44,128 nt of DNA from Flavobacteriales bacterium (GTDB taxonomy: Bacteria > Bacteroidota > Bacteroidia > NS11-12g > UBA955): positions 74,719 through 118,846 of the forward strand of contig CANHRE010000001.1 in the NCBI GenBank assembly GCA_947463095.1, written 5' to 3'. Under the pieces are notes generated by a model. The model worked only from the letters and a program-made list of their open reading frames with translations, did no database searches and had not been told where the DNA came from. The position numbers and the translations under genes were made by a program. Positions 9,851 through 37,436 of this stretch are shown piece by piece (position 1 is the stretch's first letter; every line of letters starts with the position of its first letter).

Positions 9851-9872
9851 GGTGCCGGTTGCCCGGCAAATA

Positions 9873-10838
9873 TCAGCGTGCGTAGTTAATCTTTACCGGA
9901 AATTCTGACGAACCTCCAGAAAGTACGTCGGCAACGACTTTGGTAACCTGCACAGCGGATCCGGGACTTTCAGCTGAGCGATAGTTACCTACTACTCGGG
10001 CAAAAACCCGAACATTATTGGAAGGATTGGTCAACATCACTATAGTTCCTACCCTGGCCGTTGGATGTATGATGAAGTTTCTGGTTTGATCCAATCCCTC
10101 TTTGTTGGTGATGATGGCCTTTCCTTCTTCATTCACATCTACACCGGGTTCATAAACCGTTTTTCCTGTATTCGCGCCTGCCATACCTGGATCACGTGAT
10201 TCGCCGCTTCTAACGGAATTGGGAGGCGCCACCAGCACTTGTGCCGGTTCGGTGTTGCTTGCTTTGGGAAGGGGGTCAGTGCTTCCTCCGGAAGTTGTAG
10301 CAGCATTATTTACCGCCGTGGTTGGATTGTTGGCAATGCTGGCGGAGGCTCCACTGGGAATCCTCAACACCTGTCCAATCCGTACATTATCGCTGCTTAG
10401 TTGATTTTCTTCCTTAATGGCGGAAATACTCACACCGTATTTACGGGCGATGATGCCCAGTACCTCACCTCTAACCACCTCATGCTTGATGATTTGCGCG
10501 GTGTTGATGCGCGGGGTGGCTGGATTAGAAGCAGGCACAGTTGGCGTAGAGGTATTACTCACCGTATTTGAGGCGGATGACGAAGTAACGCCCCATTTGC
10601 GGGGAATCATGATTACTTTATCAATTTGGAAAGAGGAACCTATGCCGGGGTTGGCGGCAGTGACTTCTCCTGCAGTGGTTCCGTATTTACGGCACAATCC
10701 ATAAAGGGTTTCGCCACTGCTTATTTTGTGCAACAGATAGTATTTTCCTCCGGAAATTTTACGACCTACCGAATCGGACGGCATGGCATATGCTGCTCCT
10801 GCAGACAACAACAGAGCGCTTATTATTAGTTGTTTCAT
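9873..10838 (-). CDS. LysM-domain cell-wall protein, RlpA-like C-terminus
   Basis: A 321-residue exported protein. It has a signal peptide (1-18, cut near 'AYAMPS'), a first LysM (about 30-80: 'HKISSGETLYGLCRKYG ... VIMIPRK') and a second LysM (about 120-165: 'HEVVRGEVLGIIARKYG ... VLRIPSG'). A Ser/Thr/Asn-rich linker follows. The C-terminal domain (about 240-318) resembles the double-psi barrel of RlpA/peptidoglycan-associated proteins ('GTIVMLTNPSNNVRVFARVVG'). LysM binds GlcNAc in peptidoglycan. I chose the ATG at 10838 because it starts the signal peptide; the frame stays open 49 codons further upstream. Confidence 0.8.
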   Translation of the reverse strand: MKQLIISALLLSAGAAYAMPSDSVGRKISGGKYYLLHKISSGETLYGLCRKYGTTAGEVTAANPGIGSSFQIDKVIMIPRKWGVTSSSASNTVSNTSTPTVPASNPATPRINTAQIIKHEVVRGEVLGIIARKYGVSISAIKEENQLSSDNVRIGQVLRIPSGASASIANNPTTAVNNAATTSGGSTDPLPKASNTEPAQVLVAPPNSVRSGESRDPGMAGANTGKTVYEPGVDVNEEGKAIITNKEGLDQTRNFIIHPTARVGTIVMLTNPSNNVRVFARVVGNYRSAESPGSAVQVTKVVADVLSGGSSEFPVKINYAR

Positions 10839-15566: not shown

Positions 15567-17639
15567 ATGGTGAGCCGGGCCATATCGCTACTGTTGTGCA
15601 TCGGTATCTGCCTACCTGAGCCGGTTTTGGCCCAGCGCAACAACAACCTGGGAACGGAGTTCTGGTGTGCTTTTCTGGAGAACATCAGTTCGCCGGGCAA
15701 TGTACAAATTCACCTCAGCGGGCCGGAATCCTGTAAGGGTACGGTATCCATTCCCCAGATAGCATATTCGCAGTCGTTCAGCATCGGTGCCAATGGTGCT
15801 GCCGTAGTGAATATTCCCTCTGTGATTGCCTGTCCAGACCCGTCCAATGCCATCCAGGACCGCGGCATTTATATAAAATCTGACAGGCCCGTGGCGGCTG
15901 TAGCTTTCAGCCAGGGCGCCGGCAGTGCAGGTGCATCGGCCCTGATACCGATGAACGACATTCCCAAAGCGCCGGAGTACATCATCAATGATGTACCGGT
16001 AAGCAAAGGCTTCGGCACGATGGCCGTAATTGTAGCCCTGCAAAACGGAACCCAGGTTGAAATTACACCCTTTCGCACGCTGGCTACCGGCAGACCTGCG
16101 GGAGTTCCATTCACCATCACGCTGAACCGCGGCGCCTCCTACCCCATCCGCGGGCTGGATTCACAGCAGCTGTGCGGCACGCGCATCCGCGTGGTACAAT
16201 CCTGCAAGCAGATCGTGGTGTTCCAAGGTGCCAACGGAATGCGCTGGCGCAGGGATGACCCTGGCTGCACCTCTGCCGACCATGTATATGAACAGGCAGT
16301 TCCGGTTTCTCACTGGCAGGATCAATACTATGTTCCAGCCCAGCCTGCACAAACCGTGCCCGGCTCCTATGTTATCAGCCCATGGCTTGACAATACTCAG
16401 GTGAAACTTTCAGGGAGCATTCCAGGTGTAATCACCCTGAACCGCGGAGGCACCGTAACGGCTTCTCCCGGGGCATCAGATCGCTGTATCAGCGGCGATA
16501 AAGCCCTCCAAGCACTCCTGCTGAGCCGCAGCGGCTCCTGCAACGGACATCCGCAAAAACTGGGCGACGCTTCCATTCTGACTCTTTCTTCGGATGAAGG
16601 AGCCGTGAAAGCCTGTTGGTGGTTCGTACCTACCCTGATAAGCAAGTATGAACATTACGTCAGCATAATCATCAGCGCCGGCGGCCTGCCCAGCTTAAAA
16701 ATGGATGGCATTCCCCTGAATCAGTCCTTATTTCAGAGCAGTTCCTGCGATACCCGGAAAATCGGATTTGTACAAGTGCTTCCCGGCGCACACCGTCTGG
16801 AATGCGACAGCCCTTTTCTGGCCTATGCGCAGGGTCTGGGCGACGGAGAAGCTTATGCTTTTTCACTGTGCCGCATGGCCGGGAAGAACCGTTACCTGAG
16901 CATGAACCTGAACACCGAATTGATCTGCCATCCTGATTCCTGGCTGAACATGCAGGCGGAAGGCGACAGCCTGCGCTCGGTGCGTTGGGAAATCAGCGAT
17001 GGTTCAGGCTATTCCGGGAACAGCGCCCGGCACCGCTTCGGCAGCAATGGCCGCTACCGCATACGCATGATTGCTTCTGTGGGTGGCTTCTGCCCTACTG
17101 ACACTATAGAGCGATTCGTGGTGGTCACCCGCGCTCCTGTGGCGCAACTGGGCCCTGACACCCTGTTGTGCGAAGGCACCCTGTTTCGAACGTCCTATCA
17201 GGCGCTTCCCGGACAAAAAGCCATTTGGAACCGCCCCGCTGGAGGTGGCTTTATCACCCTGAGCGCGACCGATACCCTGGTATTACGCGTAAGCGACAGC
17301 CTGGGCTGCAGCAGCAGCGATACCCTTCAGGTGCGTTTTGCCCCCTGCTTTAACGAGAAACTGGAAATACCCAATGTGTTCACTCCCGGACGCGACGGCA
17401 TCAACGACGTGTTCACCGTGAACTACAGCGGATACCGCACGGTGCAGATTTCGGTGTACAACCGCTGGGGGCAGTTAATGCATCGCTTCACCCTGCCCAA
17501 CGATGCGCCCTGGAACGGAAAGTTGAACAACAGCTTCAGCGATTGCCCCGAAGGCGTATACTACTACCTGCTGGAGGCCACAAAAGCCCGCAATGGCGAA
17601 CAAATGCGCAGCCACGGAACCATTAGCCTGATACGATAA
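15567..17639 (+). CDS. Secreted T9SS type B protein with IgGFc-binding-like N-terminus
   Basis: A 690-residue protein with a signal peptide (1-22, 'PVLAQ'). The region of about 25-300 matches the IgGFc-binding-protein-type N-terminal domain often seen in Bacteroidota ('GTEFWCAFLEN', 'PDPSNAIQDRGIYIKSDRPVAAVA', repeated Asn/Gly-rich strands). A PKD-like segment lies near 440-520. The gliding-motility-associated (CHU_C) C-terminal domain occupies about 605-690 ('NVFTPGRDGINDVFTV', 'VYNRWGQLMHRF', ending 'GTISLIR'). That domain is the type B signal for export by T9SS and retention at or release from the surface. The ligand is unknown. The codon use is more GC-rich than that of the genes near 19 kb. 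Confidence 0.88.
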   Translation: MVSRAISLLLCIGICLPEPVLAQRNNNLGTEFWCAFLENISSPGNVQIHLSGPESCKGTVSIPQIAYSQSFSIGANGAAVVNIPSVIACPDPSNAIQDRGIYIKSDRPVAAVAFSQGAGSAGASALIPMNDIPKAPEYIINDVPVSKGFGTMAVIVALQNGTQVEITPFRTLATGRPAGVPFTITLNRGASYPIRGLDSQQLCGTRIRVVQSCKQIVVFQGANGMRWRRDDPGCTSADHVYEQAVPVSHWQDQYYVPAQPAQTVPGSYVISPWLDNTQVKLSGSIPGVITLNRGGTVTASPGASDRCISGDKALQALLLSRSGSCNGHPQKLGDASILTLSSDEGAVKACWWFVPTLISKYEHYVSIIISAGGLPSLKMDGIPLNQSLFQSSSCDTRKIGFVQVLPGAHRLECDSPFLAYAQGLGDGEAYAFSLCRMAGKNRYLSMNLNTELICHPDSWLNMQAEGDSLRSVRWEISDGSGYSGNSARHRFGSNGRYRIRMIASVGGFCPTDTIERFVVVTRAPVAQLGPDTLLCEGTLFRTSYQALPGQKAIWNRPAGGGFITLSATDTLVLRVSDSLGCSSSDTLQVRFAPCFNEKLEIPNVFTPGRDGINDVFTVNYSGYRTVQISVYNRWGQLMHRFTLPNDAPWNGKLNNSFSDCPEGVYYYLLEATKARNGEQMRSHGTISLIR

Positions 17640-22255: not shown

Positions 22256-22286
22256 TTGCCATTCAGTTATTTTTAATGTACTTTCG
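22256..22286 (+). promoter_or_regulatory. Promoter of the six-gene surface operon
   Basis: TTG (22256-22258), a 20-base spacer and TACTTTCG (22279-22286) give a near-consensus Bacteroidota promoter with one mismatch in the -7 element. The ATG of the first gene is only 6 bases downstream, so a leaderless transcript is predicted. Confidence 0.55.
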
Positions 22287-22292
22287 TAATGC

Positions 22293-23216
22293 ATGAGGGT
22301 GCGAGTTTTCATAATCTGGATGGGTCTACTAGGACTAATATCCTTACAGGCCTGTGAGCAAAATGAAGATGTGCTCATCCCCGGCAATAAGCAGCCTGAC
22401 TACAGCGGTGTACCAACCATCAAGGTCGAGAATTATGTAAATAGACTGTTTATTGATTTACTGGGCAGGGAGGCTACCGACAGCGAGCGCATCCGCAGTG
22501 TGGTGTCGCTGCGCAGCGGAACGCTTTCTTTTGCGACCCGCGACAGCCTGATTCGTCGCCTGCAGCGAGATACGATCTACCGCGAAGGTGATTCAAGCTA
22601 CAGCCATGCCTGGCATGAACGTATGTATAATCTGCTCAAGGCACGCTTCCTGGAAGGCGCCGATGAAGCCGAACTTTACCTGCGCATGGGCAATGCCCAA
22701 TTCGCACAAACCATAGCCCGTCTAAACGGGGACTCCGTAGGTGTGTTCTCCGCCCAGGAGCAGATGGACAAGTACAAAAATGTGCTGAACAGTCGCTGGA
22801 AATACCGCAAGGGCCAGATCAGCCTGGGCGAAATGTGTTCCTTCATGATGAACAACGGCATCTATGACCAGATCAACATGAACAGCTTCAACTTTGTGAA
22901 TGCCAGTTTTGACGATTTATTCCGCCGCTTCCCGGTGCGCGACGAGTTTGACCAGGCCTATCAGGTTATCGAATACAATAAGCCCGGAACAGTATTCGGC
23001 AGGGTTTGTACCAACAAGAACGAATACTGCAGGTCGCTTACCGAATCAGTGGAATTTTACGAGGCGCAAATTCGCTGGGCATTTTATATCCTGCTGCAAC
23101 GCGAGGCAAGCACCCCGGAAGTGTTAAATTTACTTAGCCCCTACCGCAACAGCGGTGATTTCAAAAACGTGCAATTAGCCATCCTGAAAACCGATGAGTA
23201 TGCTCAGTTCCAATAA
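22293..23216 (+). CDS. Lipoprotein with DUF4214-like helical repeats
   Basis: A 307-residue protein. Its signal peptide ends in a lipobox ('SLQAC', Cys21). After it, 'YVNRLFIDLLGREATDSE' (about 48-65) resembles the start of DUF4214/DUF1549-type helical units, and a second unit near 250 ('AFYILLQREASTPE') ends in 'ILKTDEYAQF'. The mature protein is expected to be anchored in the outer membrane facing the periplasm or the exterior. It is the first gene of a compact six-gene operon and overlaps the next gene by 23 bases. A precise function is not supportable. Confidence 0.65.
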   Translation: MRVRVFIIWMGLLGLISLQACEQNEDVLIPGNKQPDYSGVPTIKVENYVNRLFIDLLGREATDSERIRSVVSLRSGTLSFATRDSLIRRLQRDTIYREGDSSYSHAWHERMYNLLKARFLEGADEAELYLRMGNAQFAQTIARLNGDSVGVFSAQEQMDKYKNVLNSRWKYRKGQISLGEMCSFMMNNGIYDQINMNSFNFVNASFDDLFRRFPVRDEFDQAYQVIEYNKPGTVFGRVCTNKNEYCRSLTESVEFYEAQIRWAFYILLQREASTPEVLNLLSPYRNSGDFKNVQLAILKTDEYAQFQ

Positions 23217-23697
23217 ACTTTTCTATGGCCTTGGCCTTTTGTTGCTGCTGTTCGCCGGAGCCTGCACTAAGAATGAACGGCTCAGCTACGGCCTTCTGGA
23301 TCAGGAACTGTATGAAGACAAAACCCTAAAAACCAAGAACAAGAGCGAAAGTGAATACATTAGCATTTTGTACACCAACCTCTACCAGAAGCCCATATCG
23401 CCCAACGAACTATACAAAACACAGAATGTGGTGTACAGCATCGGCGACCGCACACTGGCTTATGAAATGCTGCTGAGTAACTATTTCAATCAGGGCAGTG
23501 TGGTGATGCCTTCCAACAGCAATATGCGTGGAAGGCTGGACAGTTTTATGCTGGACACCTACAAACGTTTTTACCTGCGTTATCCCAGTGAAGCTGAAAA
23601 AACCTGGTTCCGCAACTACATCCAAGCCAACCCAGACGCCAGTGTGGAGATGGTATATACCGCTTTTGCGGCCAGTGATGAATATTCATTTTACTAG
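23194..23697 (+). CDS. Short lipoprotein, apparent paralogue of the preceding gene
   Basis: A 167-residue lipoprotein with lipobox 'FAGAC' (Cys24). The mature part has two units, 'YISILYTNLYQKPISPNE' and 'MLDTYKRFYLRYPSEAE', and ends 'AASDEYSFY'. The spacing, the 'L(L/Y)x(R/K)xxSxxE' pattern and the closing 'DEY' mirror the preceding gene, so the two probably arose by duplication. It overlaps that gene by 23 bases and is 2 bases from the next. An internal ATG at 23200 is also possible as the start. Confidence 0.65.
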   Translation: MSMLSSNKLFYGLGLLLLLFAGACTKNERLSYGLLDQELYEDKTLKTKNKSESEYISILYTNLYQKPISPNELYKTQNVVYSIGDRTLAYEMLLSNYFNQGSVVMPSNSNMRGRLDSFMLDTYKRFYLRYPSEAEKTWFRNYIQANPDASVEMVYTAFAASDEYSFY

Positions 23698-23699
23698 AC

Positions 23700-25040
23700 A
23701 TGAAGCGTAAAGAATTTATAAAGAAAGCGGGTCTGCTTGCAGCGGGCGGAGTAGCTGCACCCTATATTTTACCGAGCGGACGATTATTTGCGCGCAGCAA
23801 TACCCCGCTGGCAGATCATGTGGTGCTGGTGATGTTTGCCGGAGGGGTGCGGCAGCAGGAGGCCGTGTTGCAGCGCTATCTCGACGACAGTCAGGGCGTG
23901 AACTCTGCGGGCAACATCATGTACAACCTTATGGAAGGTGCTCCGCCGGTTTCCAAGATAGCATACGGCACTACGGCCGCGGGCGGCACTGCCGGCGGGC
24001 AACCCATCCCAAGGCTTCTGAGCCAGACGCTGCAGCAGCAGGGAACCCTGTTCCGTGAAATGCGCGCCCAGAGCGCCGGGCACTATGTGGGGCTCAACAC
24101 CCTGGTGACCGGCAATCCCGGAACTGCGCAAGGGCTGAAAGTGCGGCCGAACTTTCCCACCATTTTCGAATACCTTAGGAAACACGCCGGCTACAAGGCA
24201 TCCGACTGTTGGTTTATCGGCAATACCATTGGCAATTCCACGCCCCTGCTGAATTCTAGCGAGCATGAAACTTACGGGCTGCAATACGGAGGTAATTTCT
24301 TCGCCGCACCACTCACCTTCGGCTCCGCAGGGCGGGATGTGCTGAGCAATGCCAAACCATATTCCGACGAAGAACTGGCGCCGATGTACGCCATGAAGAA
24401 CTTCCTGGACCAGAACTTCGGCCTCAACCCGGAACAGTTTCTCAGCGTTCGTAACAGCCCTGAAGAGCGAACACGTATCAAAGAGTGGATGCGCGATGTG
24501 TACATCAGGCTGGCCAACGGGCAGATTTCCTTCCCACCCGTAAACGGCGGCGGCGACAGCTTCAACATCGGTATGGCTGCCGAAGTGCTGCGGGCCTTTA
24601 AACCTAAAGTACTTGTGGTGAACATGAGCGCCGTAGACGGCTGCCACAGCAACTTCACAGGTTACCTGCAAAGCCTGCACCGGGCCGACCACGCCACCGG
24701 CTGGCTCTGGGATCAGATACAGCGCAACATCCCTGAGATGAGCGGTAAGACCATGATGATTGTTGCTCCGGAATGCGGCCGCAACCTGAAACCCAATCCC
24801 ATCCAGGATGAAAACGATTGGTATGCCTACGACCATAGTGATGCCAATGCCCTGCGCGTTTGGGGGCTCATGGCCGGCCCGAATGTCCCCCAGAACCTGG
24901 TGGTGGGCAGCGAAATCAGTCCCAGTGGCAGACTTACCGACATCGTACCTACCATCGCCCATGCATTGGGCATCAAGGATGAAGTGATGAACTCAGGGCT
25001 ACTAGACCCGCTGGCCCGCTCCTTATTCGACAGGATATGA
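23700..25040 (+). CDS. Exported alkaline-phosphatase-superfamily protein (DUF1501-like)
   Basis: A 446-residue protein. The N-terminus 'MKRKEFIKKAGLLAAGGVAAP' looks like a twin-arginine signal with the second Arg replaced by Lys, followed by a hydrophobic core. Sulfatase/phosphatase-superfamily features are 'HVVLVMFAGGVRQQEAV' (about 40-56), 'VVNMSAVDGCHSNFTGYLQSLHRADHATGWLWD' (about 300-335), 'MMIVAPECGRN' and the late 'DHSDANALRVWGLMAGP'. The usual metal-binding Asp in the first strand is replaced here by Gly/Ala, so activity may differ. DUF1501 proteins are known mainly from gene pairs of unknown role. Tightly packed: 2 bases after one gene and overlapping the next by 4. Confidence 0.7.
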   Translation: MKRKEFIKKAGLLAAGGVAAPYILPSGRLFARSNTPLADHVVLVMFAGGVRQQEAVLQRYLDDSQGVNSAGNIMYNLMEGAPPVSKIAYGTTAAGGTAGGQPIPRLLSQTLQQQGTLFREMRAQSAGHYVGLNTLVTGNPGTAQGLKVRPNFPTIFEYLRKHAGYKASDCWFIGNTIGNSTPLLNSSEHETYGLQYGGNFFAAPLTFGSAGRDVLSNAKPYSDEELAPMYAMKNFLDQNFGLNPEQFLSVRNSPEERTRIKEWMRDVYIRLANGQISFPPVNGGGDSFNIGMAAEVLRAFKPKVLVVNMSAVDGCHSNFTGYLQSLHRADHATGWLWDQIQRNIPEMSGKTMMIVAPECGRNLKPNPIQDENDWYAYDHSDANALRVWGLMAGPNVPQNLVVGSEISPSGRLTDIVPTIAHALGIKDEVMNSGLLDPLARSLFDRI

Positions 25041-25969
25041 AACAGTTATGGATTTATCTGCTGATTGGCGTAAGCGCCCAGGCCTGTACTAAAGAGGGCA
25101 AAAGGCCTGAAAACCCCTTTAACAGCGGCAACAACCAGCAGCCCAAAGACACCACCACGGCGCCGGACCCCTACACCATCCAAGGCATCCATTACAACAT
25201 CCTGAAGCCAACCTGCGCCAACAGCGGTTGCCACGACGGCACATTTGAGCCCGACTTCAGAACCATTTCAAGTTCCTACAACACGCTGTTGTATCGCAAA
25301 CCCATCAAAAACGACGGCACAGGTAGTTTTGCAGCCAGGGTCGTGCCAGGCAATGCAGACCTGAGCATGTTGTGGTACCGCATGACGGTAGATCTGGGAG
25401 GAAACTCCGGCATCATGCCACTGGTGGTAGACCCCGGCAGCAAGTGGCCTTCCAAAAAGGTTGAATATCTGAACCATATACGCACCTGGATCAACAATGG
25501 TGCGAAAGATCAATTCGGAAATCCCCCTTCCCTTCCCGACCAGCTTCCGCAAGTGCTGGGCATGACCGTTATGGTGAATGGTACAGAAGCCTCGCGCCCC
25601 GGGCGCTACGAACCCATCCAGGTTCCTTATGGCAGCATTGCAGAGGTATGGATTTGCTTTGCCGACGATAAGAGCGCACAGGATGCGCTGAGCAACGCGC
25701 GCATCAACTTCAGCCTTGACCCAGGGAAATACAATCCTGCTTCCGCTCAAACCCTCTTGCAGGCAACGCCAGCAAGGGTTTTTAAATCAGTCTATGGTCA
25801 GAATGAAAGCTTTCTGTATCGCTTCAGCCTGAACACCAATACCTGGAAACTGGGCGATGTTATATGGTTGCAGCTGGGCATCAGCGACGGGGTAAACGGA
25901 AACTCCTTGATTCCAAACAGCGATGCCCTTTTTTATCTTAAGAAATACCTTGCCATCCGTTTGATATGA
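25037..25969 (+). CDS. Cytochrome-c-like lipoprotein with C-X4-C-H motif
   Basis: A 310-residue protein with a signal peptide ending 'SAQAC' (Cys17, a loose lipobox) and a Pro/Asn/Gln linker. A domain (about 45-160) resembles planctomycete-type cytochrome c: 'ILKPTCANSGCHDG' (Cys60, Cys65, His66) and, near 130, 'GIMPLV' as a candidate distal Met ligand, then 'IRTWINNGAKD'. The C-X4-C-H spacing differs from classical C-X2-C-H, so covalent heme is likely but unproven. The C-terminal half (about 175-310) looks like a beta-sandwich ('YEPIQVPYGSIAEVWICFADD'). Start and stop overlap the neighbouring genes by 4 bases each. Confidence 0.7.
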   Translation: MKQLWIYLLIGVSAQACTKEGKRPENPFNSGNNQQPKDTTTAPDPYTIQGIHYNILKPTCANSGCHDGTFEPDFRTISSSYNTLLYRKPIKNDGTGSFAARVVPGNADLSMLWYRMTVDLGGNSGIMPLVVDPGSKWPSKKVEYLNHIRTWINNGAKDQFGNPPSLPDQLPQVLGMTVMVNGTEASRPGRYEPIQVPYGSIAEVWICFADDKSAQDALSNARINFSLDPGKYNPASAQTLLQATPARVFKSVYGQNESFLYRFSLNTNTWKLGDVIWLQLGISDGVNGNSLIPNSDALFYLKKYLAIRLI

Positions 25970-26409
25970 ACCTGCGCGACTTACCTGCACTTTTGCTCCT
26001 GGCCGGTCTGGCATCATGCGGGAAAGAGGCGCCCTATGTGCCCAACCCGGTTCCTTTTCTAAGCTTGGACAGTGTGAGCAGCACCAGCGTTATTCAGTTT
26101 AAAGACAGCCTGCGCATCTACCTGAAATTTGACGACGGCGACGGCGACCTAGGTGCGCTTAACCCGGACAGCAACAGCTTGTCGGTGCAGGATGCCCGCT
26201 TCAACCGTCCGGATTACTATTTCGTGCCTCCTCAGGCACCGGCCACTGCCAAAGTTCGCGTAAAGGGACGCTTCGTGCTGCGAATGAAGAACCTGTTTCT
26301 CCTGGGCAGTGGCAATGCTGAACCCACCTCGTTCACCCTGCGCATCAAAGACCGCAGCGGAAACTGGAGCAATACGGTAAGCACACCTTTAATCACCATC
26401 AAGCGCTGA
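25966..26409 (+). CDS. Small Ig-like lipoprotein
   Basis: A 147-residue protein with a clear lipobox ('LASC', Cys18). The mature part contains 'LRIYLKFDDGDGDLG', a motif of Bacteroidota lipoproteins with a calcium-loop-like DDGDGDLG segment, and ends 'FTLRIKDRSGNWSNTVSTPLITIKR', consistent with a single immunoglobulin-like sandwich. It overlaps the cytochrome-like gene by 4 bases and is 1 base from the next gene. Role unknown; a structural partner of the other surface proteins is a fair inference. Confidence 0.7.
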   Translation: MNLRDLPALLLLAGLASCGKEAPYVPNPVPFLSLDSVSSTSVIQFKDSLRIYLKFDDGDGDLGALNPDSNSLSVQDARFNRPDYYFVPPQAPATAKVRVKGRFVLRMKNLFLLGSGNAEPTSFTLRIKDRSGNWSNTVSTPLITIKR

Positions 26410-26410
26410 G

Positions 26411-29400
26411 ATGAAGGGCCTTATTTATATAACCATGATGTTTCCTCTGGCCGTTGCTGCCCAGAATACTTATTACATGAGCAACGGCAGGGTGCGGGCA
26501 TGTTCGGGCATCTTCAAAGACAGCGAAAAAGGCAAAACCCCCGGCGATTACGACCATAACGAGGCCTACATATTCACCATCAGCGTACCGGGAGCCAGTA
26601 GTATCAGCATCAACTTTAAGAGTTTCTGTACAGAAAAAAACAACGACTTCCTGCAGATTTACAATGGGAAAGACACCTTTGCCCCCAAGCTGGGGCCACG
26701 ATATTCGGGCAGTGCAGGTCCCGGGGTGGTGACCAGCACCGACAGCTTCATCACCTTCTTCTTCAAAAGCGACAAAAACATTGCCTGTTCGGGCTGGGAA
26801 GCCACCTGGAACGCGAAGATGCGGGTGATTACAGCACCTACCCTCACCCTTCAAATGGCACCGAAATGCAAGCAACAAAGCCTGAGCCTGTTGTTGGGTC
26901 GGGCCTTCCCCTGTGATTCAGTGAAACCAGGCAGTTTTTTGCTATCAGGACCGGTGAGCAGCAGTGTTACCACAGTCACCCCCGTGAATTGCAGCGGCGG
27001 AAGCACAGCCACCTATACCCTGCAGCTATCCAATCCGCTGAACATGAGTGGAACTTATACCTTGGATGCCATATTGTATTTTAAAGATTACTGCGACAGC
27101 ATCTGGACGTTAAAAAGCAGGTTAACCTTCACCATCAGCGATTGCCCCCTGAAGGTACAGCTTACCGCTGATAGCGACACCTTATGCAGGGGCAGTTGCA
27201 CCTGGCTGCGCGCCACGGTATCAGGAGGAACACCCTCGCGATATGTATATTCCTGGACACCAGGCGGTTTAACGGGTGCAGGACCTCACCGGATTTGCCC
27301 CACCTCCTCCACACGTTATATCCTGCGCGTTACCGACGGACTTTCGGTACCTTCTTCCGACACAGTGGATATTGCCGTTTTAGCTCCGCCGAATGCCCAG
27401 CCGGACACCATGGTATGTTACCTGTCGGCACCTTTCCGTCTCAGGGCAACACCGGCTGGGGGCTTTTGGCAGGGAAAGGGAATCACCGATGCAGCGAACG
27501 GCATCTTTAGTCCTGCGGCGAGTGGTGGTGGTACGTTTAAAGTCTGGTATCAGATAGGCAACTGCGCCGACACGGTGCTGGTAACCTCCACTGGCATTTG
27601 GAATGGCGACAACCTGTTTTGTCCGAAAACACCTCCTGCTGCCTTATACCATATTTACCCGACAGGAGGCACCTGGACCGGCCCTAAGGTTACAACCGGC
27701 GGCATGTTTAATCCCGACAGCGCAGGCACCTATAAACTCACCTATACCTGGAAAGGCTGCGTTTCTACCAAAACCGTGCGGGTTACCCCGATTTGGGCCA
27801 AACCCTTTGATACGGTCTGTGAGAGCAGTACGTATCATCAACTTCAATTTAACCCTATTGGTGTTTATTTCAACTGGTTCCCCGGCTTGTTGAACGGCTA
27901 TTACGGAACGGTAAACCCATCGCTGATGGGCGGTCCAGGCACTAAAACCATCATCTATTATGCTGGTGGATGCAAGGACACTACCCTGCTCACTTTGCTT
28001 CCCATTTACGCCGGCAAGCGATTTGACACCATTTGTCCCCAGGCCGGTGTTTATACCCTAAGCGGATTCAGACCCGGCGCGGGCTATTCATGGAGGGGCA
28101 GAGGCATTCTGGATACCACGAAAGCCCAGTATAATCCAGCTTATTTTGCTTCGCTGGGTAAAACCAGCTTCACCGATACGCTGACCATTCGCAACGGACG
28201 CTGCACGGACATTAAATTCATGACCTTGTTGCCCACAAGAGTTGGTAAGCGCGACACGCTGTTTCTATGTGCCCAGGATACCGGTATCTGGCTGAGCAAG
28301 GCACTAACCCAATTCACTCCTTCAGGAGGAAGTTGGAGCGGCAAGGGAATTACCAATGCCAAAGGATTGTTTAGGCCCTCCGCGGCAGGATATGGAACAC
28401 AACTGGCCTTTTACAACGTTAATGGCTGTAGGGACAGCCTGAGGATTTGTGTACGACCTAAAACGGGCATCCAAAAAGACACCTCCGTTTGCCGCAGTTC
28501 CGGAACCTTTAAACTAAAAACCACCTTGAGTGGAGGAAACTTTTATGGCACTGGCATCAGCAACAGCGCACTGGGACTATTCAATCCGGCCATTGCCCTA
28601 AAAGGGAAAAACCGCATCATCTACGTAAGCAGGTTCGGATGTTACGATACGGTATTCATTACTGTAGATACCGTCCCGGTGCTAAGCTGGCTGAGCGTAC
28701 CTGCAACGCCCTGCCTTAAAGACACTTCATACCAGCTCAGGGCGGCCCCTGCCGGAGGTAGTTTCAGCGGACCCGGCATCAGCGGAACGATATTCAATCC
28801 ACGCAAAGCCGGGTCGGGCAGCAAGCTTATTGTTTACCGGCTCAATCAGGGTGCTTGCTTGGGAAGTCTTCAACAAAACATTAGCGTTGCAGACACCCTG
28901 CGGGTGCGATTTTCCGGCAGTGGCGACAGCATATGTCCGGGCGCTACCGCCTTACTTACAGCCCAGCCAACCGGTGGAAACCGCTTCGGGTATCGTTTCT
29001 GGTGGTCAAACGGACTCACCGGCGCCAACCAGGCCTATTTCAGTCCCAGCAGCAGCACCACCATCAGAGTGGCAGTAAACGACGGCTGTTCGGATCCAGA
29101 TACGGCCGTGCAGTTATTGTATGTGCACCCCCCTGTTTGGTTCAGGGTGCGTACCAGTCCGCCAGCCTGCTATGGATTGCCGGGCTTTATCAAGGTAACG
29201 ATGAGCAATCCAGGAACTTACCGCTATTTGTGGAACAGCCAACCTGCGCAACAAAGCGACAGTATGCGCGGATTTGCGGGCTCGCGTTACCGTGTGAGCG
29301 TAGAAAACAAAAACAGCGGCTGCAAGAACGACACTACTATAGAATTGCCAGGATTCAGGAAGCTCAATGCAGGATTCATCACCAATCCGCCAAAGGGAAT

Positions 29401-29899
29401 ATGCCTGAGCAACATAAACCCCAGGATGTATTTCCTGGACATGAGCAGCGGAGGTCTGAACGGCACCTGGCACTTCGGGGATGGCAGCACCGAGCCCTAC
29501 ATACCCGGCAACAATCCGTCACACGTATACCAAACGGATACCAATCGGTATATGGTTCGGCTGATCATCGGCAACAGCGGCGGATGCGCCGATTCATCAG
29601 CTTTGTTGATTTGTGTTACCGATACCGTTTTGCTCTATGTACCCACGGCGTTTACCCCAAACCGCAATGGGCTCAACGAGCTGTTTCTACCCTCCATCAC
29701 GGGAGCGCGTGAATACCGCCTGGACATTTATAACCGCTGGGGAGAGAAGGTATTCAGCAGTTCCGACCCGCTGATTGGCTGGGATGGCACTTACCTGGGT
29801 GCGGAATGTCCAGCAGGATGTTATGCTTATACCATCCACTATAAGGGTAAGAAAACCTACCGACAGATCAACAGTGGCTTGCTGAACCTGATACGCTGA
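26411..29899 (+). CDS. Large secreted CUB-repeat-PKD protein, T9SS type B
   Basis: A 1162-residue protein with a signal peptide (1-18, 'AVAAQN'). A CUB domain (about 19-135: 'CSGIFKDSEKG', 'FKSFCTEKNNDFLQIYNGKD', 'ITFFFKSDKNIACSGW') is followed by beta-sandwich segments. Seven degenerate repeats of about 70 residues come next. A PKD domain (about 1000-1065, 'GTWHFGDGSTEP') precedes the CHU_C type B sorting domain (about 1075-1162: 'VPTAFTPNRNGLNELF', 'IYNRWGEKVFSSS', ending 'LLNLIR'). It is the last gene of the six-gene operon, and its size suggests a long surface filament or adhesin that carries or receives the other products. Confidence 0.85.
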   Translation: MKGLIYITMMFPLAVAAQNTYYMSNGRVRACSGIFKDSEKGKTPGDYDHNEAYIFTISVPGASSISINFKSFCTEKNNDFLQIYNGKDTFAPKLGPRYSGSAGPGVVTSTDSFITFFFKSDKNIACSGWEATWNAKMRVITAPTLTLQMAPKCKQQSLSLLLGRAFPCDSVKPGSFLLSGPVSSSVTTVTPVNCSGGSTATYTLQLSNPLNMSGTYTLDAILYFKDYCDSIWTLKSRLTFTISDCPLKVQLTADSDTLCRGSCTWLRATVSGGTPSRYVYSWTPGGLTGAGPHRICPTSSTRYILRVTDGLSVPSSDTVDIAVLAPPNAQPDTMVCYLSAPFRLRATPAGGFWQGKGITDAANGIFSPAASGGGTFKVWYQIGNCADTVLVTSTGIWNGDNLFCPKTPPAALYHIYPTGGTWTGPKVTTGGMFNPDSAGTYKLTYTWKGCVSTKTVRVTPIWAKPFDTVCESSTYHQLQFNPIGVYFNWFPGLLNGYYGTVNPSLMGGPGTKTIIYYAGGCKDTTLLTLLPIYAGKRFDTICPQAGVYTLSGFRPGAGYSWRGRGILDTTKAQYNPAYFASLGKTSFTDTLTIRNGRCTDIKFMTLLPTRVGKRDTLFLCAQDTGIWLSKALTQFTPSGGSWSGKGITNAKGLFRPSAAGYGTQLAFYNVNGCRDSLRICVRPKTGIQKDTSVCRSSGTFKLKTTLSGGNFYGTGISNSALGLFNPAIALKGKNRIIYVSRFGCYDTVFITVDTVPVLSWLSVPATPCLKDTSYQLRAAPAGGSFSGPGISGTIFNPRKAGSGSKLIVYRLNQGACLGSLQQNISVADTLRVRFSGSGDSICPGATALLTAQPTGGNRFGYRFWWSNGLTGANQAYFSPSSSTTIRVAVNDGCSDPDTAVQLLYVHPPVWFRVRTSPPACYGLPGFIKVTMSNPGTYRYLWNSQPAQQSDSMRGFAGSRYRVSVENKNSGCKNDTTIELPGFRKLNAGFITNPPKGICLSNINPRMYFLDMSSGGLNGTWHFGDGSTEPYIPGNNPSHVYQTDTNRYMVRLIIGNSGGCADSSALLICVTDTVLLYVPTAFTPNRNGLNELFLPSITGAREYRLDIYNRWGEKVFSSSDPLIGWDGTYLGAECPAGCYAYTIHYKGKKTYRQINSGLLNLIR
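27436..28880 (+). repeat. Seven degenerate protein repeats inside the CUB/T9SS gene
   Basis: The translated region shows seven related units of about 65-75 residues. The pattern is (P/S)GG-x-(W/F)-x-G-x-GI ... G-x-F-x-P ... AG-x-G ... V-x-Y ... GC-x-DT. Clear examples start near 27455, 27660, 28325, 28530 and 28745; the units near 27850 and 28070 are more divergent. DNA identity is low, so these are old duplications under protein-level selection. Confidence 0.65.
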
Positions 29900-29948
29900 A
29901 CATGTCAGGCATAACCTAAAGCCGCCGGTGGATGCTGATATTCGCGGC

Positions 29949-31505
29949 ATGGATCACTATCAGAGCAGTTTTGCGGTGCGGGCCATTGCCCGGTATCTGG
30001 CGGAAAAGCTGCCCGGATATTTCCTGACAGAATCCTACAGCACCGGAAAAGATGAGTTGCTGCTGGAGTTTGAATCCAAAGACTGTAGCTTCAACCTGAA
30101 ACTCAACTGGGCTGATGGTCAGTTATTCATCAGCATGCCGGAACAAGGTGGTCAAGCGGGAAAGAATACCATCAACCAATTCCGGGACGCCATAGGCAAA
30201 CAGGTTGCTGCGGTGCACGACTGTGGTTTCGACCGCAGCTTCCGCATAGTATTCAATGATCAGTCCCAGCTGGTATTTAAGTGCTGGGGCAGACACAGCA
30301 ATATATTGTTGTATGAAGCAGGGGCCAATTCCTGCAGTCAGCACTTCAGGCTGCACCATAAAGGCGACACACAGCTGGCAGCGTCAACGTTCACAGGACA
30401 GCGTGACTTTGAATACAATCTTGCTGCATGCAGCGACCCTGAGTTGTTTCAGCAGGCTTATCCATTTGTAGTACCCTCTCTGCTCGATTATCTGGTCAGG
30501 CATGGCTTTTTCAAGTTGCCTGAATCCGAACGGCGGGCCATGTTTCACATCTTCAAACAGCAGTTGGAGCAGCCCCAGTGGTATATCGGCGAAGTTGAAG
30601 GAATACCTTATTTCAGCTTTTTTCCGGAAGCCGGAGCAGATGCGATTACTGTCCTGCCAGAAGCACTCAACCGATATGCCAAAGCCTACCTCAGCCGCTT
30701 TCACTTTCGTTCAAAGAAGCAGCAGCTGCGCAGCTTCTGGCAGCAAGATGCCATCCGTCTGGGCAGAATGCTGGAAGAACTGCGAAAGGAGCAAAAACGT
30801 CTGTTGGAACGGCCCGGTTACAAGCTTATGGGCGACCTGATTATGGCCCATCTGCAGCAAATTAAAAGCGGCACCAAAGATATTGCCCTTCCCGATTTCG
30901 AGGAAAAGAACATCATTCAGATCAAGCTAAACAGCACGCTCAGCGCCATTCAGAATGCCGAGGCCTTTTACCGGAAAGCAAGGAATGAATCAAAGGAAGA
31001 GGAACTGGTTCAGGCGCGGCTTGCTGCAACCATTGCAGGACACCAACGGGCCTTGCATTGGCTTGAGGTGCTCGATGCGGCGGAACAGTCAAGAGCATTG
31101 AGGGATATACCCCTACCTGAAAAGAAAGGCAAGGCACAGCATAGCGACCTGCCCTTTCACGAGTTCAATATTCAGGGGTATGTGGTTTGGGTAGGTAAAC
31201 ATGCCAAAGCTAATGAGCTGCTGTTGAACAGTTACAGCCGAAAGAATGATGTTTGGCTGCATGCCCGGGATGTTAGCGGAAGCCATGTGCTGGTGCGCTG
31301 CAACAGCGGCATCAGCGGAATTTCAAAGGCGGTGCTGGAACAAGCAGCGTCCCTGGCCGCCTGGTTTTCAAAAGGCAAAACACAAGGATGGTTGCCAGTG
31401 CAGTACACAGAACGCAAGTACGTGAGGAAGAAAAAAGGCGGCGCTCCGGGTGAGGTGCTGGTGGAAAAGGAAAAAGTGTTGGTGGTGCAGCCGGGTTTGC
31501 CATAG
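29949..31505 (+). CDS. NFACT-family ribosome quality-control protein (RqcH-like)
   Basis: A 518-residue cytosolic protein of RqcH/Tae2/NEMF type. The N-terminal NFACT-N part shows 'GKDELLLEFESKDCSFNLKLNW' and 'FDRSFRIVFNDQSQLVFKCWGRHSNILLYE'. The central coiled coil covers about 260-370. The C-terminal NFACT-R (DUF814) domain carries 'NDVWLHARDVSGSHVLVRC' near 430-448. In bacteria with RqcH the protein binds stalled 50S-nascent-chain complexes and directs C-terminal Ala tailing. Bacteroidota homologues are poorly studied. I chose the ATG at 29949; a GTG seven codons upstream is open. It begins 49 bases after the surface operon. Confidence 0.85.
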   Translation: MDHYQSSFAVRAIARYLAEKLPGYFLTESYSTGKDELLLEFESKDCSFNLKLNWADGQLFISMPEQGGQAGKNTINQFRDAIGKQVAAVHDCGFDRSFRIVFNDQSQLVFKCWGRHSNILLYEAGANSCSQHFRLHHKGDTQLAASTFTGQRDFEYNLAACSDPELFQQAYPFVVPSLLDYLVRHGFFKLPESERRAMFHIFKQQLEQPQWYIGEVEGIPYFSFFPEAGADAITVLPEALNRYAKAYLSRFHFRSKKQQLRSFWQQDAIRLGRMLEELRKEQKRLLERPGYKLMGDLIMAHLQQIKSGTKDIALPDFEEKNIIQIKLNSTLSAIQNAEAFYRKARNESKEEELVQARLAATIAGHQRALHWLEVLDAAEQSRALRDIPLPEKKGKAQHSDLPFHEFNIQGYVVWVGKHAKANELLLNSYSRKNDVWLHARDVSGSHVLVRCNSGISGISKAVLEQAASLAAWFSKGKTQGWLPVQYTERKYVRKKKGGAPGEVLVEKEKVLVVQPGLP

Positions 31506-33722: not shown

Positions 33723-36700
33723 TCATTCCAGCACATGTACCACGCCTGTTTGAGTATAGCGGCGGTTGTCCCAGCCCATATACACGACCATCCAGGCAAA
33801 CACGTTATCGAAGGGTTTTCCCTGTCCCATAATGCCGGGCCACTGCAGCTTCTTGTTTTTAGAATCAAAAACCTTTTCACCCCAGCGGTTAAACACCATC
33901 ATGTGGTAGTCGCGCACAAATACCGGCACAGTGCCCCAAACATCGTTCATTTCATCGCCGTTGGGTGTAAAGGCGTCGGGTACATACAATTCCGGGGGCT
34001 GGAACAGGTAAATTTCATTGCTGTTGCTTTCGGCATTGTACCCCCCGGAGGCTTCGCGGGCTTTGACGCGATAGAAATAGCCGCCCCAGTCATAGTTGAG
34101 TTTATTGTCGCGGTAATCAAAGCCCGGATGCGGCAGCGCAACAAGTGGGCGCAAAGTTCCTGTGTCCACTCGCCGTTCCAACACATAATCAGAAACCCCT
34201 CCTTTCCAGTAATCGTACTCCATCCACGAAAGGTCAAAATAATATTGGGGCTTGCCCGTAGCATCACCTTTCAACACGATGGTACAAGCGCGGTTCGACC
34301 TATTGCTCACGTGACCGCAACGGTCCAGAACACGCACTTTATAACAATAGCTTTCAAGGTCAACAAGCACATCGCGGTCGGTATAGAAACTGTCGTCGCG
34401 GTTGGTGATTGTGGCAATAATCTTATAGGGCTGCTTACCGTCGCGGCTGGCACGGTACAGTTCATAACTGCCAAAATCCGCTTCTCCGCTCCGCAACCAT
34501 ATCACTTGTACTTCTTTATCATCAACAACAGTTGCAGTGATGATGTAGGTGCTGTCTATTGGCGCGTTCAATTCCTTTTGGGTGCATACCCTGAAACCCC
34601 GGTCGGTAAATACGTTGCAAGTGTTCACGCCTATAAAAAAGTAGCAATAATTGCGCACTCTGGGATTCATGGCATTACGGTCTGTAAAACTGCCTCCACT
34701 GGCGTTGCGTATGGTATCAAGTGTAATGACATTCGCCCCTTCCTGCCTTTTGAGAATCAGGCACTTCCAGTATTGATGCGCGGGGGAAGCGGGCCATTGA
34801 AGGGTTACCACACCGGTAGTTTCGTTTAACAGCAGACATATCTCCCCAGGCGGCTCCACAACAGGCGGAGGGTCTACAAGAATTTTTATGGTATTCCAGG
34901 TGGTATCCATTTTAGGACAGCCCTGATCGTGCACCCGCACGCGGAGCAAGAAGGTATCCTTTCCGGAATGGTTGCAGTTGGTATTCCATTGCACATTAGC
35001 CACGGAACGTCCCGCTCCCTTGTTGAGGCTAAGCACGGGATAAGGCCCCTGAACAGAATCCCAAGCCTTGCCGATTCGTTCAATTTCAAGGTAGACCGTA
35101 TCCTGCTCGTCGGGATCTGTACCCACGATATTGAAATTGAGCACCTCGGTGGCCGTGATGCGATAGATGGTATCTCTGGAAACAGGTTTCTGGTTCAGAT
35201 TTTCAAAATCTATCTTGAAAATAGCATTGTTGCAGTTATCGCTGTTGTTGGTTCGGCTGTATGCCCCTGGCGTGGTTGGGAACAATCCATTCTGACCACA
35301 ACCCGCACAAACGGCTTGGTAGATGATGCCCTTCTTGTCGAAACGCGAGGTGCCGCCGTCCACGTGCTCATCGGCATCGATGGTTCTGGTCGAAATGCCG
35401 CCGAAGTAGGTTCCGTATAACAGTTTGCTGAAGTTCCTTCCCAGAACGGCGATGTAAAAATCGCTGCCGTCTGTAGTGCGTTGCACGGCATTCGGTGTTA
35501 TAGGCATGTTTCTGGTATTGCCCCTATTTTTCTGGCTCTTAGGTACATTGCTGTTGGTTGATCCGCCCCAGCCGGAAACAAAAATTCGGTCGCAGCGATC
35601 TACCAGAAAAGCAGAAGGCGAAATATTGGGAACCTGTCCTCCGCTGCCAAAGGCGGTGCTCAGGTCAATGGCGCTCAAATCGGATCTGAATCGCGTGATG
35701 AACTGACCACCACCGGCATTACCGAACACCCCCGGGCTAATGTACCAAGAGCCTTCAGTTTGACCGAAAACATAGGGTCTTCCTTTGGTATCTGTTTGCA
35801 CGAAATAGCACTGGTCGTAAGCGGGCGTTCCGACAAATAAACCCGACTGAAAGACGCCGGTATAACGGTTCAGCCTTACAAGAAATCCGTCGGCCATACC
35901 CCCCCTGTTGGTGTTAGCAAAGGATTGAAAAGGCAAAGGGAACCGGGTACTGTTGGTTCCTCCGCTGATGAAAATATCCTGATTCAATCCCAGCGCCAGG
36001 CCATATCCGGCATCGTAACCGGTACCGCCCAGGCAGGTACTCCATTTCAACTGGTTGAGGCTGTTGTCCATACACATCACCACGGCATCCTGGTTACCAG
36101 CAAAGGTCTGCACCTGGTTTTTCAGCGGAAAATCAGCACTGTAACTGGTGGATGACAGGTAGATATTGCCCAGGGAATCGCACAGCACTTCACCGCGGAA
36201 CTCATCGGCGTAGTTGTACATCAGGGGAATACCGTTGGCATCGGGAAGAGGTTCGCGATCTCCGAGCATGCCATCAATACCTGAGCCGCCCGCAAAAGTT
36301 GCCGCCATCAAGCCCGTACCGGAGGCATTAAGCTTGGCCAGTACTATGTCATAGTCGCCGTTATGGCTTAAATCCCATCCTTTACCGGTATTGGGGAAAT
36401 CGGCGCTGCGGGTGGAGCCCAGGATAACCAGGTTTCCTGCAGGGTCAACAATCATCGAATGTGGCTGTTCATTGCTGCTGCCGCCCAGGTAGGTAGCATA
36501 GAGCAGGCGTTTACCATCGGGAGAGAATTTCAGAATGCCCATATCCCTGCTTCCACCATAACCGGTGCGCGATTCAGGATCGCCACCGCCAAATCGAGGC
36601 TGATAGCTACCCATGCTGGTGGGAAAGCCAAAATCAAACACCGTTCCCCCGGCATAGGCATTGCCAAAATCGTCGTAAGTGCCTGTGCAGCCAAAGTTGT

Positions 36701-37436
36701 CGGCAAAGGACCCTGAGTAGGTGGAAAAAACCAATACAGGGTCTATCACCAGGGGCCCTTTGAAGCGCTGTGGCAATTCAATATGAAACTTCACCGTATC
36801 ACCCTTCAGCACATATGCAGCTTCGTAGGCATCTCCGGTACCTTGTTCTGGGTCATATACCAGCGGGATGTGTTCCTGAACAGCACCCAGAGCCGTTTCA
36901 ATATGCAGACGGCCTTTAAATATTGTGGGCAAACCAACGCCTTCATAAAGAATACCGATGCGGGAGGGATCTACCCCTGCCTGAAGGTGTAGATTATATT
37001 TAAGAGAATTACCCTCGGCGCTCAGTTCCAGATCCACTCCGGGGTACAAACCGCGCAACCATATTGACGCATAAGCTTGAGCCTTAAAGGCCCATTTAGC
37101 AGGATTATTGCCATGAAGGAAATTATAAAATTCAGGTGCCGGATGCTCCCCTTCGGCCTGCAGCTTTGGAGCAGCGTTACAAAAACGCATACGGTACGCA
37201 TGCATGAGCAGTGAATCACCTTCGGCAACATCATGATGCCATAATTGGGCCTTAGCTCGATCATAGCGTTGAAACACCAGCGCATCGCGTTCCACATACA
37301 ACTTTCCACCTTGTAAATCTGCCCGGAACAATACCTGAGAAGGCCATTGTCCTAGATTTTCCACAAAACGCAATTGTGCGTTCAGCGCTCCGCAGAAAAA
37401 AATGCCTAGGAAAGTGGTGAGCAGTTTAAAAAACAC
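33723..37436 (-). CDS. Large SBBP-repeat surface protein, T9SS type B
   Basis: A 1237-residue protein with signal peptide 'FFCGALNAQ' (1-20). The N-terminal domain (about 22-230, 'RFVENLGQWPSQVLFRADLQGGKLYVERDALVF') matches the DUF7948-type domain that precedes SBBP beta-propeller repeats. The propeller repeats (about 230-700) show motifs such as 'ILKFSPDGKRLLYATYLGGSS' and 'KWSTCLGGTGYDAGYGLALG'. Fibronectin III-like modules (about 800-1140) follow, then the CHU_C sorting domain ('VPDAFTPNGDEMNDVWGT', 'VFNRWGEKVFDSKN', ending 'GVVHVLE'). The apparent start is GTG; the frame is closed by TAA 11 codons upstream and no ATG lies between. It is divergent from fmt. Confidence 0.85.
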   Translation of the reverse strand: MFFKLLTTFLGIFFCGALNAQLRFVENLGQWPSQVLFRADLQGGKLYVERDALVFQRYDRAKAQLWHHDVAEGDSLLMHAYRMRFCNAAPKLQAEGEHPAPEFYNFLHGNNPAKWAFKAQAYASIWLRGLYPGVDLELSAEGNSLKYNLHLQAGVDPSRIGILYEGVGLPTIFKGRLHIETALGAVQEHIPLVYDPEQGTGDAYEAAYVLKGDTVKFHIELPQRFKGPLVIDPVLVFSTYSGSFADNFGCTGTYDDFGNAYAGGTVFDFGFPTSMGSYQPRFGGGDPESRTGYGGSRDMGILKFSPDGKRLLYATYLGGSSNEQPHSMIVDPAGNLVILGSTRSADFPNTGKGWDLSHNGDYDIVLAKLNASGTGLMAATFAGGSGIDGMLGDREPLPDANGIPLMYNYADEFRGEVLCDSLGNIYLSSTSYSADFPLKNQVQTFAGNQDAVVMCMDNSLNQLKWSTCLGGTGYDAGYGLALGLNQDIFISGGTNSTRFPLPFQSFANTNRGGMADGFLVRLNRYTGVFQSGLFVGTPAYDQCYFVQTDTKGRPYVFGQTEGSWYISPGVFGNAGGGQFITRFRSDLSAIDLSTAFGSGGQVPNISPSAFLVDRCDRIFVSGWGGSTNSNVPKSQKNRGNTRNMPITPNAVQRTTDGSDFYIAVLGRNFSKLLYGTYFGGISTRTIDADEHVDGGTSRFDKKGIIYQAVCAGCGQNGLFPTTPGAYSRTNNSDNCNNAIFKIDFENLNQKPVSRDTIYRITATEVLNFNIVGTDPDEQDTVYLEIERIGKAWDSVQGPYPVLSLNKGAGRSVANVQWNTNCNHSGKDTFLLRVRVHDQGCPKMDTTWNTIKILVDPPPVVEPPGEICLLLNETTGVVTLQWPASPAHQYWKCLILKRQEGANVITLDTIRNASGGSFTDRNAMNPRVRNYCYFFIGVNTCNVFTDRGFRVCTQKELNAPIDSTYIITATVVDDKEVQVIWLRSGEADFGSYELYRASRDGKQPYKIIATITNRDDSFYTDRDVLVDLESYCYKVRVLDRCGHVSNRSNRACTIVLKGDATGKPQYYFDLSWMEYDYWKGGVSDYVLERRVDTGTLRPLVALPHPGFDYRDNKLNYDWGGYFYRVKAREASGGYNAESNSNEIYLFQPPELYVPDAFTPNGDEMNDVWGTVPVFVRDYHMMVFNRWGEKVFDSKNKKLQWPGIMGQGKPFDNVFAWMVVYMGWDNRRYTQTGVVHVLE

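Follow-up and report, generated by a model that had tools for sequence, protein, structure and literature searches.

A conserved six-gene operon of Bacteroidia encoding DUF1501-like and PSCyt1-like exported proteins

Gene layout and promoter of the operon

The window analyzed here, 44,128 nucleotides (nt) of contig CANHRE010000001.1 (assembly GCA_947463095.1, positions 74,719 to 118,846, forward strand), comes from an uncultured member of Bacteroidia whose genome of 2.6 Mb is 96% complete. Calling of open reading frames showed that six + strand genes, termed A to F, fill positions 22293-29899. They encode four lipoproteins (A, B, D and E), an exported DUF1501-like protein (C) and a large secreted protein (F). 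Clusters with F are referred to as type I and those without it as type II. The genes and the sequence ahead of them are as follows (lengths in amino acids, aa; PBS, phycobilisome; Tat, twin-arginine translocation).

22256-22286, + strand: Bacteroidetes-type promoter-like sequence TTG-N20-TACTTTCG, a consensus match from a pattern scan, preceding gene A
22293-23216, + strand: gene A, 307-aa lipoprotein, all-helical by model; relatives match DUF4214, PBS_linker_poly and PSCyt2/DUF1549
23194-23697, + strand: gene B, 167-aa DUF4214-like lipoprotein, distantly related to A
23700-25040, + strand: gene C, 446-aa exported DUF1501-like protein of the alkaline-phosphatase/sulfatase superfamily, with the Tat-like start KRKEFIKK
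25037-25969, + strand: gene D, 310-aa lipoprotein with a PSCyt1-like cytochrome domain followed by a C-terminal extension
25966-26409, + strand: gene E, 147-aa lipoprotein with the core DGDGDLG ... DRSGNWSN, possibly beta-rich or immunoglobulin-like
26411-29899, + strand: gene F, 1162-aa secreted Cys/Gly-rich repeat protein, found in type I clusters only

The gene positions and junctions agreed exactly with a preliminary description of this DNA: overlaps of 23 nt (A/B), 4 nt (C/D) and 4 nt (D/E), and gaps of 2 nt (B/C) and 1 nt (E/F). An overlap, or a gap of at most 10 nt, was found at A/B in 69 of 74 loci (-20 commonest), at C/D in 65 of 77 (-4 commonest) and at D/E in 67 of 73 (-4 commonest). 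Because this close spacing recurs across loci, the packing is far beyond chance.

The preliminary description had placed one promoter ahead of A, and the pattern scan bore this out at the level of a consensus match. TTG-N20-TACTTTCG occurs twice on the + strand in the whole 44 kb, one occurrence being 22256-22286, and no comparable Bacteroidetes-type sequence was found on the + strand within the operon. In a 96%-related locus (L063) the sequence is kept as TTGCC...TAGTTTCG. Of 71 relatives, 35 have a strict TAnnTTTG in the 150 bp ahead of A; upstream of B, C, E and F the counts were 0/76, 1/79, 3/71 and 4/66. D had it in 19 of 77 relatives; this stretch sits within the C reading frame, and the matches may simply reflect the coding sequence of C. 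A scan for E. coli-type promoters revealed none on the + strand inside the operon, and the number of matches in E. coli-type promoter and terminator scans was not above that in shuffled sequence. An Rfam scan of the window gave no match.

Conservation as a unit and the two cluster types

A homologue of C was found in 61 of 70 genomes of the host family, nearly always once per genome and in most cases with 60-70% identity. Among 32 host-family loci read at length, 26 had all six genes in the same order; of the remaining six, one (L061) ends at a contig edge after E, and five hold a short C only. An independent contig collection gave 65 of 80 loci with all six genes on one strand and in order, and most of the others were cut by contig ends. 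On one 12.6-kb contig (L128), a type I C of full length (8626-9963; 666 bits) has none of the other five genes with it.

Co-occurrence in 396 Bacteroidia genomes was tallied from two search tables, with C counted if its match was better than 1e-40 and the best few first-look candidates scored per genome. Full-length C was present in 82 genomes, A in 82, and both in 81. The lone C (G446) is at the edge of its contig, and the lone A (G168) is a 145-residue frame. A phylum-wide genome draw gave no strong C match outside class Bacteroidia. According to the preliminary description, recurrence of at least four of the six genes in several orders would speak for a system, and homologues occurring mostly apart would speak against one. 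With breadth judged by families, recurrence of all six genes with their order kept extended to about 15 Bacteroidia families, and the genes were almost never apart. These findings support the conclusion that the six genes form one system. About one in five of the sampled Bacteroidia genomes would carry this apparently undescribed envelope system.

Type II clusters, described here from about 20 loci, are recognized by full-length C matches of lower score (about 270-340 bits). They keep the order A-B-C-D-E, and in the five loci read E is not followed by F; therefore ABCDE is the core and F is a type I addition. The preliminary description had proposed F, a protein of the type IX secretion system (T9SS), as a scaffold; F is not the defining scaffold, being absent from a whole paralogous branch. 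It had also read the packing as a sign of fixed stoichiometry; neither this nor a physical complex is supported by the present evidence. Trees of the single genes place type II in a clade of its own for A, C and D (support 0.998-1.0) and for B (0.94); the E tree leaves the types unseparated (0.26). Pairwise tree distances within type I correlate between genes, with r from 0.54 to 0.92 (C-D 0.87, A-D 0.92). Both types are present together in some genomes. The simplest reading of these sequence relationships is that the five genes were duplicated once, as a set, with F gained or lost with the type.

About seven loci contain C alone. In five genomes of two host-family genera (L056-L060), a short diverged C stands directly before an NFACT gene, which is the type I site. 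Some type II loci, e.g. L163 and L172, are preceded by a peptidase of M20 type (assigned by eye). In L183 and L184 (G100 and G222) a stand-alone short C follows such a peptidase, and there type II, too, may have been reduced to C. A further stand-alone short C (L186) lies among different neighbours. None of the loci examined had ABDE without C. Because the short C persists alone at both type I and type II sites, these loci suggest that C is the functional centre of the system. The loss of the other genes around a short C may instead reflect a changed function.

Family relationships and export of the encoded proteins

Single-sequence Pfam and NCBIfam searches with A to E gave nothing usable, and alignments were required. 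Three motifs of C are needed below.

24636-24647, + strand: C D313-H316 (DGCH), counterpart of GWDQH/GFDTH in DUF1501; D313 and H316 are invariant in the C alignment
24771-24785, + strand: C E358-N362 (ECGRN), counterpart of EFGRT in DUF1501
24831-24836, + strand: C D378-H379, counterpart of the DH pair in DUF1501

The assignment of C to DUF1501 in the preliminary description was not recovered by single-sequence Pfam but was borne out by profile, motif and fold. PF07394 (DUF1501) matched neither window C nor 41 type I members; 3 of 18 type II C proteins matched it weakly (best 0.0032), and 8 matched Sulfatase weakly. In local-mode hhalign comparisons with 103-114 rows per own family, the C profile gave probabilities of 92% (core) and 79% against two DUF1501 sets and 0.1% against an unrelated control, these being pairwise values and not database-calibrated ones. 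A motif alignment showed the DUF1501 core motifs in order in C: GG, GH..TG, DGCH, ECGRN and DH. The AlphaFold model of C had a mean predicted local distance difference test score (pLDDT) of 85. Foldseek found 441 PDB matches to it at E<=1e-3, with sulfatases and alkaline phosphatases at the top (E 1e-10). C shares with the sulfatase/alkaline phosphatase superfamily its predicted fold and the conserved D..H and DH motifs; unlike sulfatases, it has neither the CxPSR signature nor an acidic ligand on the first strand. PDB sequence searches revealed no convincing relative of C or of D. C is the most conserved protein, with a mean column identity of 67%, versus 43% for D. By sequence and model, C is a divergent DUF1501-like protein with a predicted sulfatase/alkaline-phosphatase fold.

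D was compared with the PSCyt1 N-terminal region of PSCyt1-DUF1549-DUF1553 proteins. Its putative heme site is the following.

25214-25234, + strand: D residues 60-66 (CANSGCH), a CX4CH heme-attachment-like motif

Residues 4-157 of D aligned with the PSCyt1 region at an hhalign probability of 96.4% (E 1.1e-9), over a stretch that takes in the signal peptides but is mostly the domain itself. After the heme motif, D matches PSCyt1 in V.PGN..S.L..R ... MP ... I..WI..GA. Every one of the 112 D proteins, type I and type II, has CX4CH, and none has CXXCH. M127, a candidate axial ligand, is invariant in the D alignment. The host genome has cytochrome c assembly genes. Many type II D proteins (L163-L180, e.g. 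L163:7827-8798) have an extra segment, TNCCF...DDRMP, that places a pair of Cys shortly ahead of the conserved Met; type I has no such segment.

A and B had been described as two related helical lipoproteins. The AlphaFold model of A was all-helical (pLDDT 92.6), and B is a distant relative of A; hhalign gave 89%, over a match that takes in the signal peptide. At E<=0.05, relatives of A (n=44) matched DUF4214 (26; best 6e-7), PBS_linker_poly (14; 1e-8) and PSCyt2/DUF1549 (11; 4.5e-5); window A itself matched none of the DUF4214, PSCyt2 and PBS_linker models. DUF4214 was also matched by 16 of 26 relatives of B. The C-terminal half of A aligned with DUF1800 (hhalign 65%). The best coherent Foldseek matches of A were PBS linker domains, with probability 0.97-0.99 over part of the model and E > 0.5; a PDB sequence search with A pointed weakly to the same family (E 0.012-0.7). 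A and B appear to share the helical motif of DUF4214/phycobilisome linkers (PBS_linker_poly) but differ from them in being lipoproteins without phycobilisome context, and the Foldseek match covers only part of A. Two further candidates were dropped. B was not taken for a DUF1553 homologue (hhalign 2%; Pfam 2/26, best 0.021). A DUF4214 link to the S-layer protein RsaA, a low-ranked fold match of A, was abandoned because Caulobacter had no DUF4214 match.

The E family has conserved DGDGDLG and DRAGNWSN. No Pfam family matched E, and its description as immunoglobulin-like was not confirmed. F, as had been described, has both a CUB and a T9SS type B domain by Pfam.

26537-26806, + strand: F CUB domain, residues 43-132 (Pfam E 4.7e-10; 14/15 F proteins)
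29639-29863, + strand: F CHU_C/T9SS type B sorting domain, residues 1077-1151 (Pfam E 1.2e-13; 15/15 F proteins)

F scored 43.6 bits with TIGR04131 (cut-off 35), and its signal peptide was judged by eye. The F family has many conserved Cys and Gly/Pro. C begins MKRKEFIKKAGLLAAGG and has no lipobox; a Tat-like motif was found in 43 of 80 C proteins. The host genome contains TatC and PorP-family T9SS genes. Lipoprotein signal peptides and lipoboxes were present in window A, B, D and E and in most of their relatives. The signal for surface lipoproteins is K-(D/E)2 or a relative of it after the +1 Cys, and it varies between species (PMC5080379). K[DE] after this Cys was found in 40 of 90 A, 63 of 92 B, 36 of 83 D and 45 of 80 E proteins, and in 2 of 18 controls; the full K(D/E)2 was a minority.

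Relation to known gene pairs and proposed role

PSCyt2- and PSCyt3-encoding genes adjoin two families of unknown genes (PMC5615132), and in sampled Bacteroidota genomes we saw directly a DUF1501 gene beside that of a PSCyt1-DUF1549/DUF1553 protein. The preliminary description knew of no described system that combines these families. There is a precedent in part: DUF1501, PSCyt1 and DUF1549/DUF1553 form a known though uncharacterized pairing (PMC5615132). For the six-gene operon, no description was found in the open-licence literature searched.

The planctomycete-type pair, PSCyt1-DUF1549(PSCyt2)-DUF1553(PSD1) plus DUF1501, has in common with the operon a DUF1501-type exported protein, a helical DUF1549-type part and a PSCyt1-type domain. 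The operon differs in its separate genes, four lipoproteins, CX4CH in place of CXXCH, and the added E and F; window C is too diverged for PF07394, and among the genomes searched the operon occurs in Bacteroidia only. A second known pair, DUF1501/DUF1800, accompanies bacterial chitin synthases, and its DUF1501 protein carries a twin-arginine signal (PMC5122149). Here the likeness lies in the pairing of a Tat-type DUF1501 protein with a helical partner; however, that pair has two genes and no cytochrome, and its similarity to C is limited to the core motifs. The host genome itself contains a DUF1800 + DUF1501 pair (L254, G000:C92, 3530-6789, - strand), whose 568-aa DUF1501 protein has a probable type A T9SS tail. 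Given this tail, it looks as if a DUF1501 protein can be surface-exported in this host.

Judging by these families, the operon is very probably a Bacteroidia-specific form of the PSCyt1-DUF1549-DUF1553 + DUF1501 pair, split into separate genes. The uncharacterized PSCyt/DUF1501 and DUF1800/DUF1501 sets are abundant in some bacteria. Here the same parts are separate, mostly single-copy genes in one tight operon, so that their roles are separable and their interactions testable.

We propose that the operon encodes one envelope-anchored system, the split counterpart of that pair, in which a hydrolase acts with a cytochrome; we give identity and mechanism jointly a probability of roughly 0.55. The mechanism taken alone falls somewhat short of even odds. 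Conservation as a unit, the kinship of C, D and A to named families, the signal sequences and the predicted fold of C are established. On the complex, its location and membrane face, the heme in D, and the hydrolase activity and substrate of C, we infer the following. C would be exported, probably folded, via Tat, and would be the catalytic part of the system, a metal-dependent hydrolase of the sulfatase/phosphatase superfamily. D would be a membrane-anchored, single-heme cytochrome-like protein. The helical linker-type lipoproteins A and B and the small lipoprotein E may together anchor C and D to the outer membrane. F of type I clusters would be a surface protein secreted by the T9SS, and substrate or a partner may be bound by its CUB domain. 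The likeliest activity is ester hydrolysis or remodelling on a cell-surface or extracellular polymer, and D may couple this hydrolysis to redox state or gate it by redox state. The activity is extrapolated from the fold because the function of PSCyt genes is stated to be unknown (PMC5615132) and no characterized member of the system was found.

Several points weigh against this proposal. The first strand of C (FAGGVR) is without the acidic metal ligand expected for the superfamily, and no nucleophile was recognized in the motif alignment of C with DUF1501. CX4CH is an unusual heme motif, and the single-sequence Pfam scan of D gave no PSCyt1 match. The hhalign probabilities for A are weak (48-65%), and E has no family match. 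No member of the system with a known biochemical function was found. Surface export of the lipoproteins has only a partial signature; were they to face outward while C stays in the periplasm, a single complex would be impossible.

A more specific version is tentative: ABCDE(F) may be an undescribed, Bacteroidia-wide envelope enzyme in which Tat-exported C acts jointly with a CX4CH monoheme lipoprotein, and hydrolysis on a surface polymer is coupled to or controlled by electron transfer. If true, the entire PSCyt/DUF1501/DUF1800 group would gain a tractable model.

Maintenance of the envelope or remodelling of a polymer is favoured as a role over nutrient scavenging because the system is near-universal and single-copy in a small-genome family and the scanned flanks contain no SusCD or CAZyme (carbohydrate-active enzyme); the argument is one from absence. 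A biosynthetic, non-degradative apparatus that assembles or modifies the cell wall or an exopolysaccharide is somewhat unlikely. Such a role has been suggested for the chitin-synthase-linked DUF1501/DUF1800 pairs (PMC5122149), and it would suit both the single-copy C of the small host-family genomes (61/70) and the absence of SusCD and glycoside hydrolase genes from the flanking genes scanned in the window. However, these genes also include no glycosyltransferase or polymer export gene, and C is only distantly related to the chitin-associated DUF1501.

An outer-surface electron-transfer or redox-sensing module, with D active and C a non-catalytic structural member of its superfamily, is unlikely. 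It would account for CX4CH in 112/112 D proteins with an invariant Met, for the cytochrome c assembly genes of the host, and for a C without the usual first-strand acidic ligand or a recognizable nucleophile. But it is C, not D, that is most conserved (67% vs 43%) and that alone survives in reduced loci, and a lone heme would make a poor conduit when the operon encodes neither a multiheme partner nor a porin. It is very unlikely that the operon is an ordinary sulfatase/phosphatase cluster for nutrient scavenging, of the kind used in polysaccharide utilisation: the sulfatase-like fold, the lipoproteins and the CUB + T9SS protein would fit it, but the conserved unit contains no SusC/SusD, CAZyme or transporter, its gene content is rigid and not variable across families, and C is without the sulfatase CxPSR signature.

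An NFACT gene (29928-31505, + strand) follows F. It occupies the same place in at least 18 of the 32 host-family loci, 5 of these 18 being C-only loci, and does not do so in the wider set. Reading a function from neighbouring genes was dropped, because the flanks vary outside the host family and NFACT and the M20-type peptidase are uninformative on role. Two more T9SS type B proteins are encoded near the operon: an IgGFc_binding/CHU_C protein at 15567-17639 (+ strand) and a DUF7948/SBBP/CHU_C protein at 33723-37436 (- strand).

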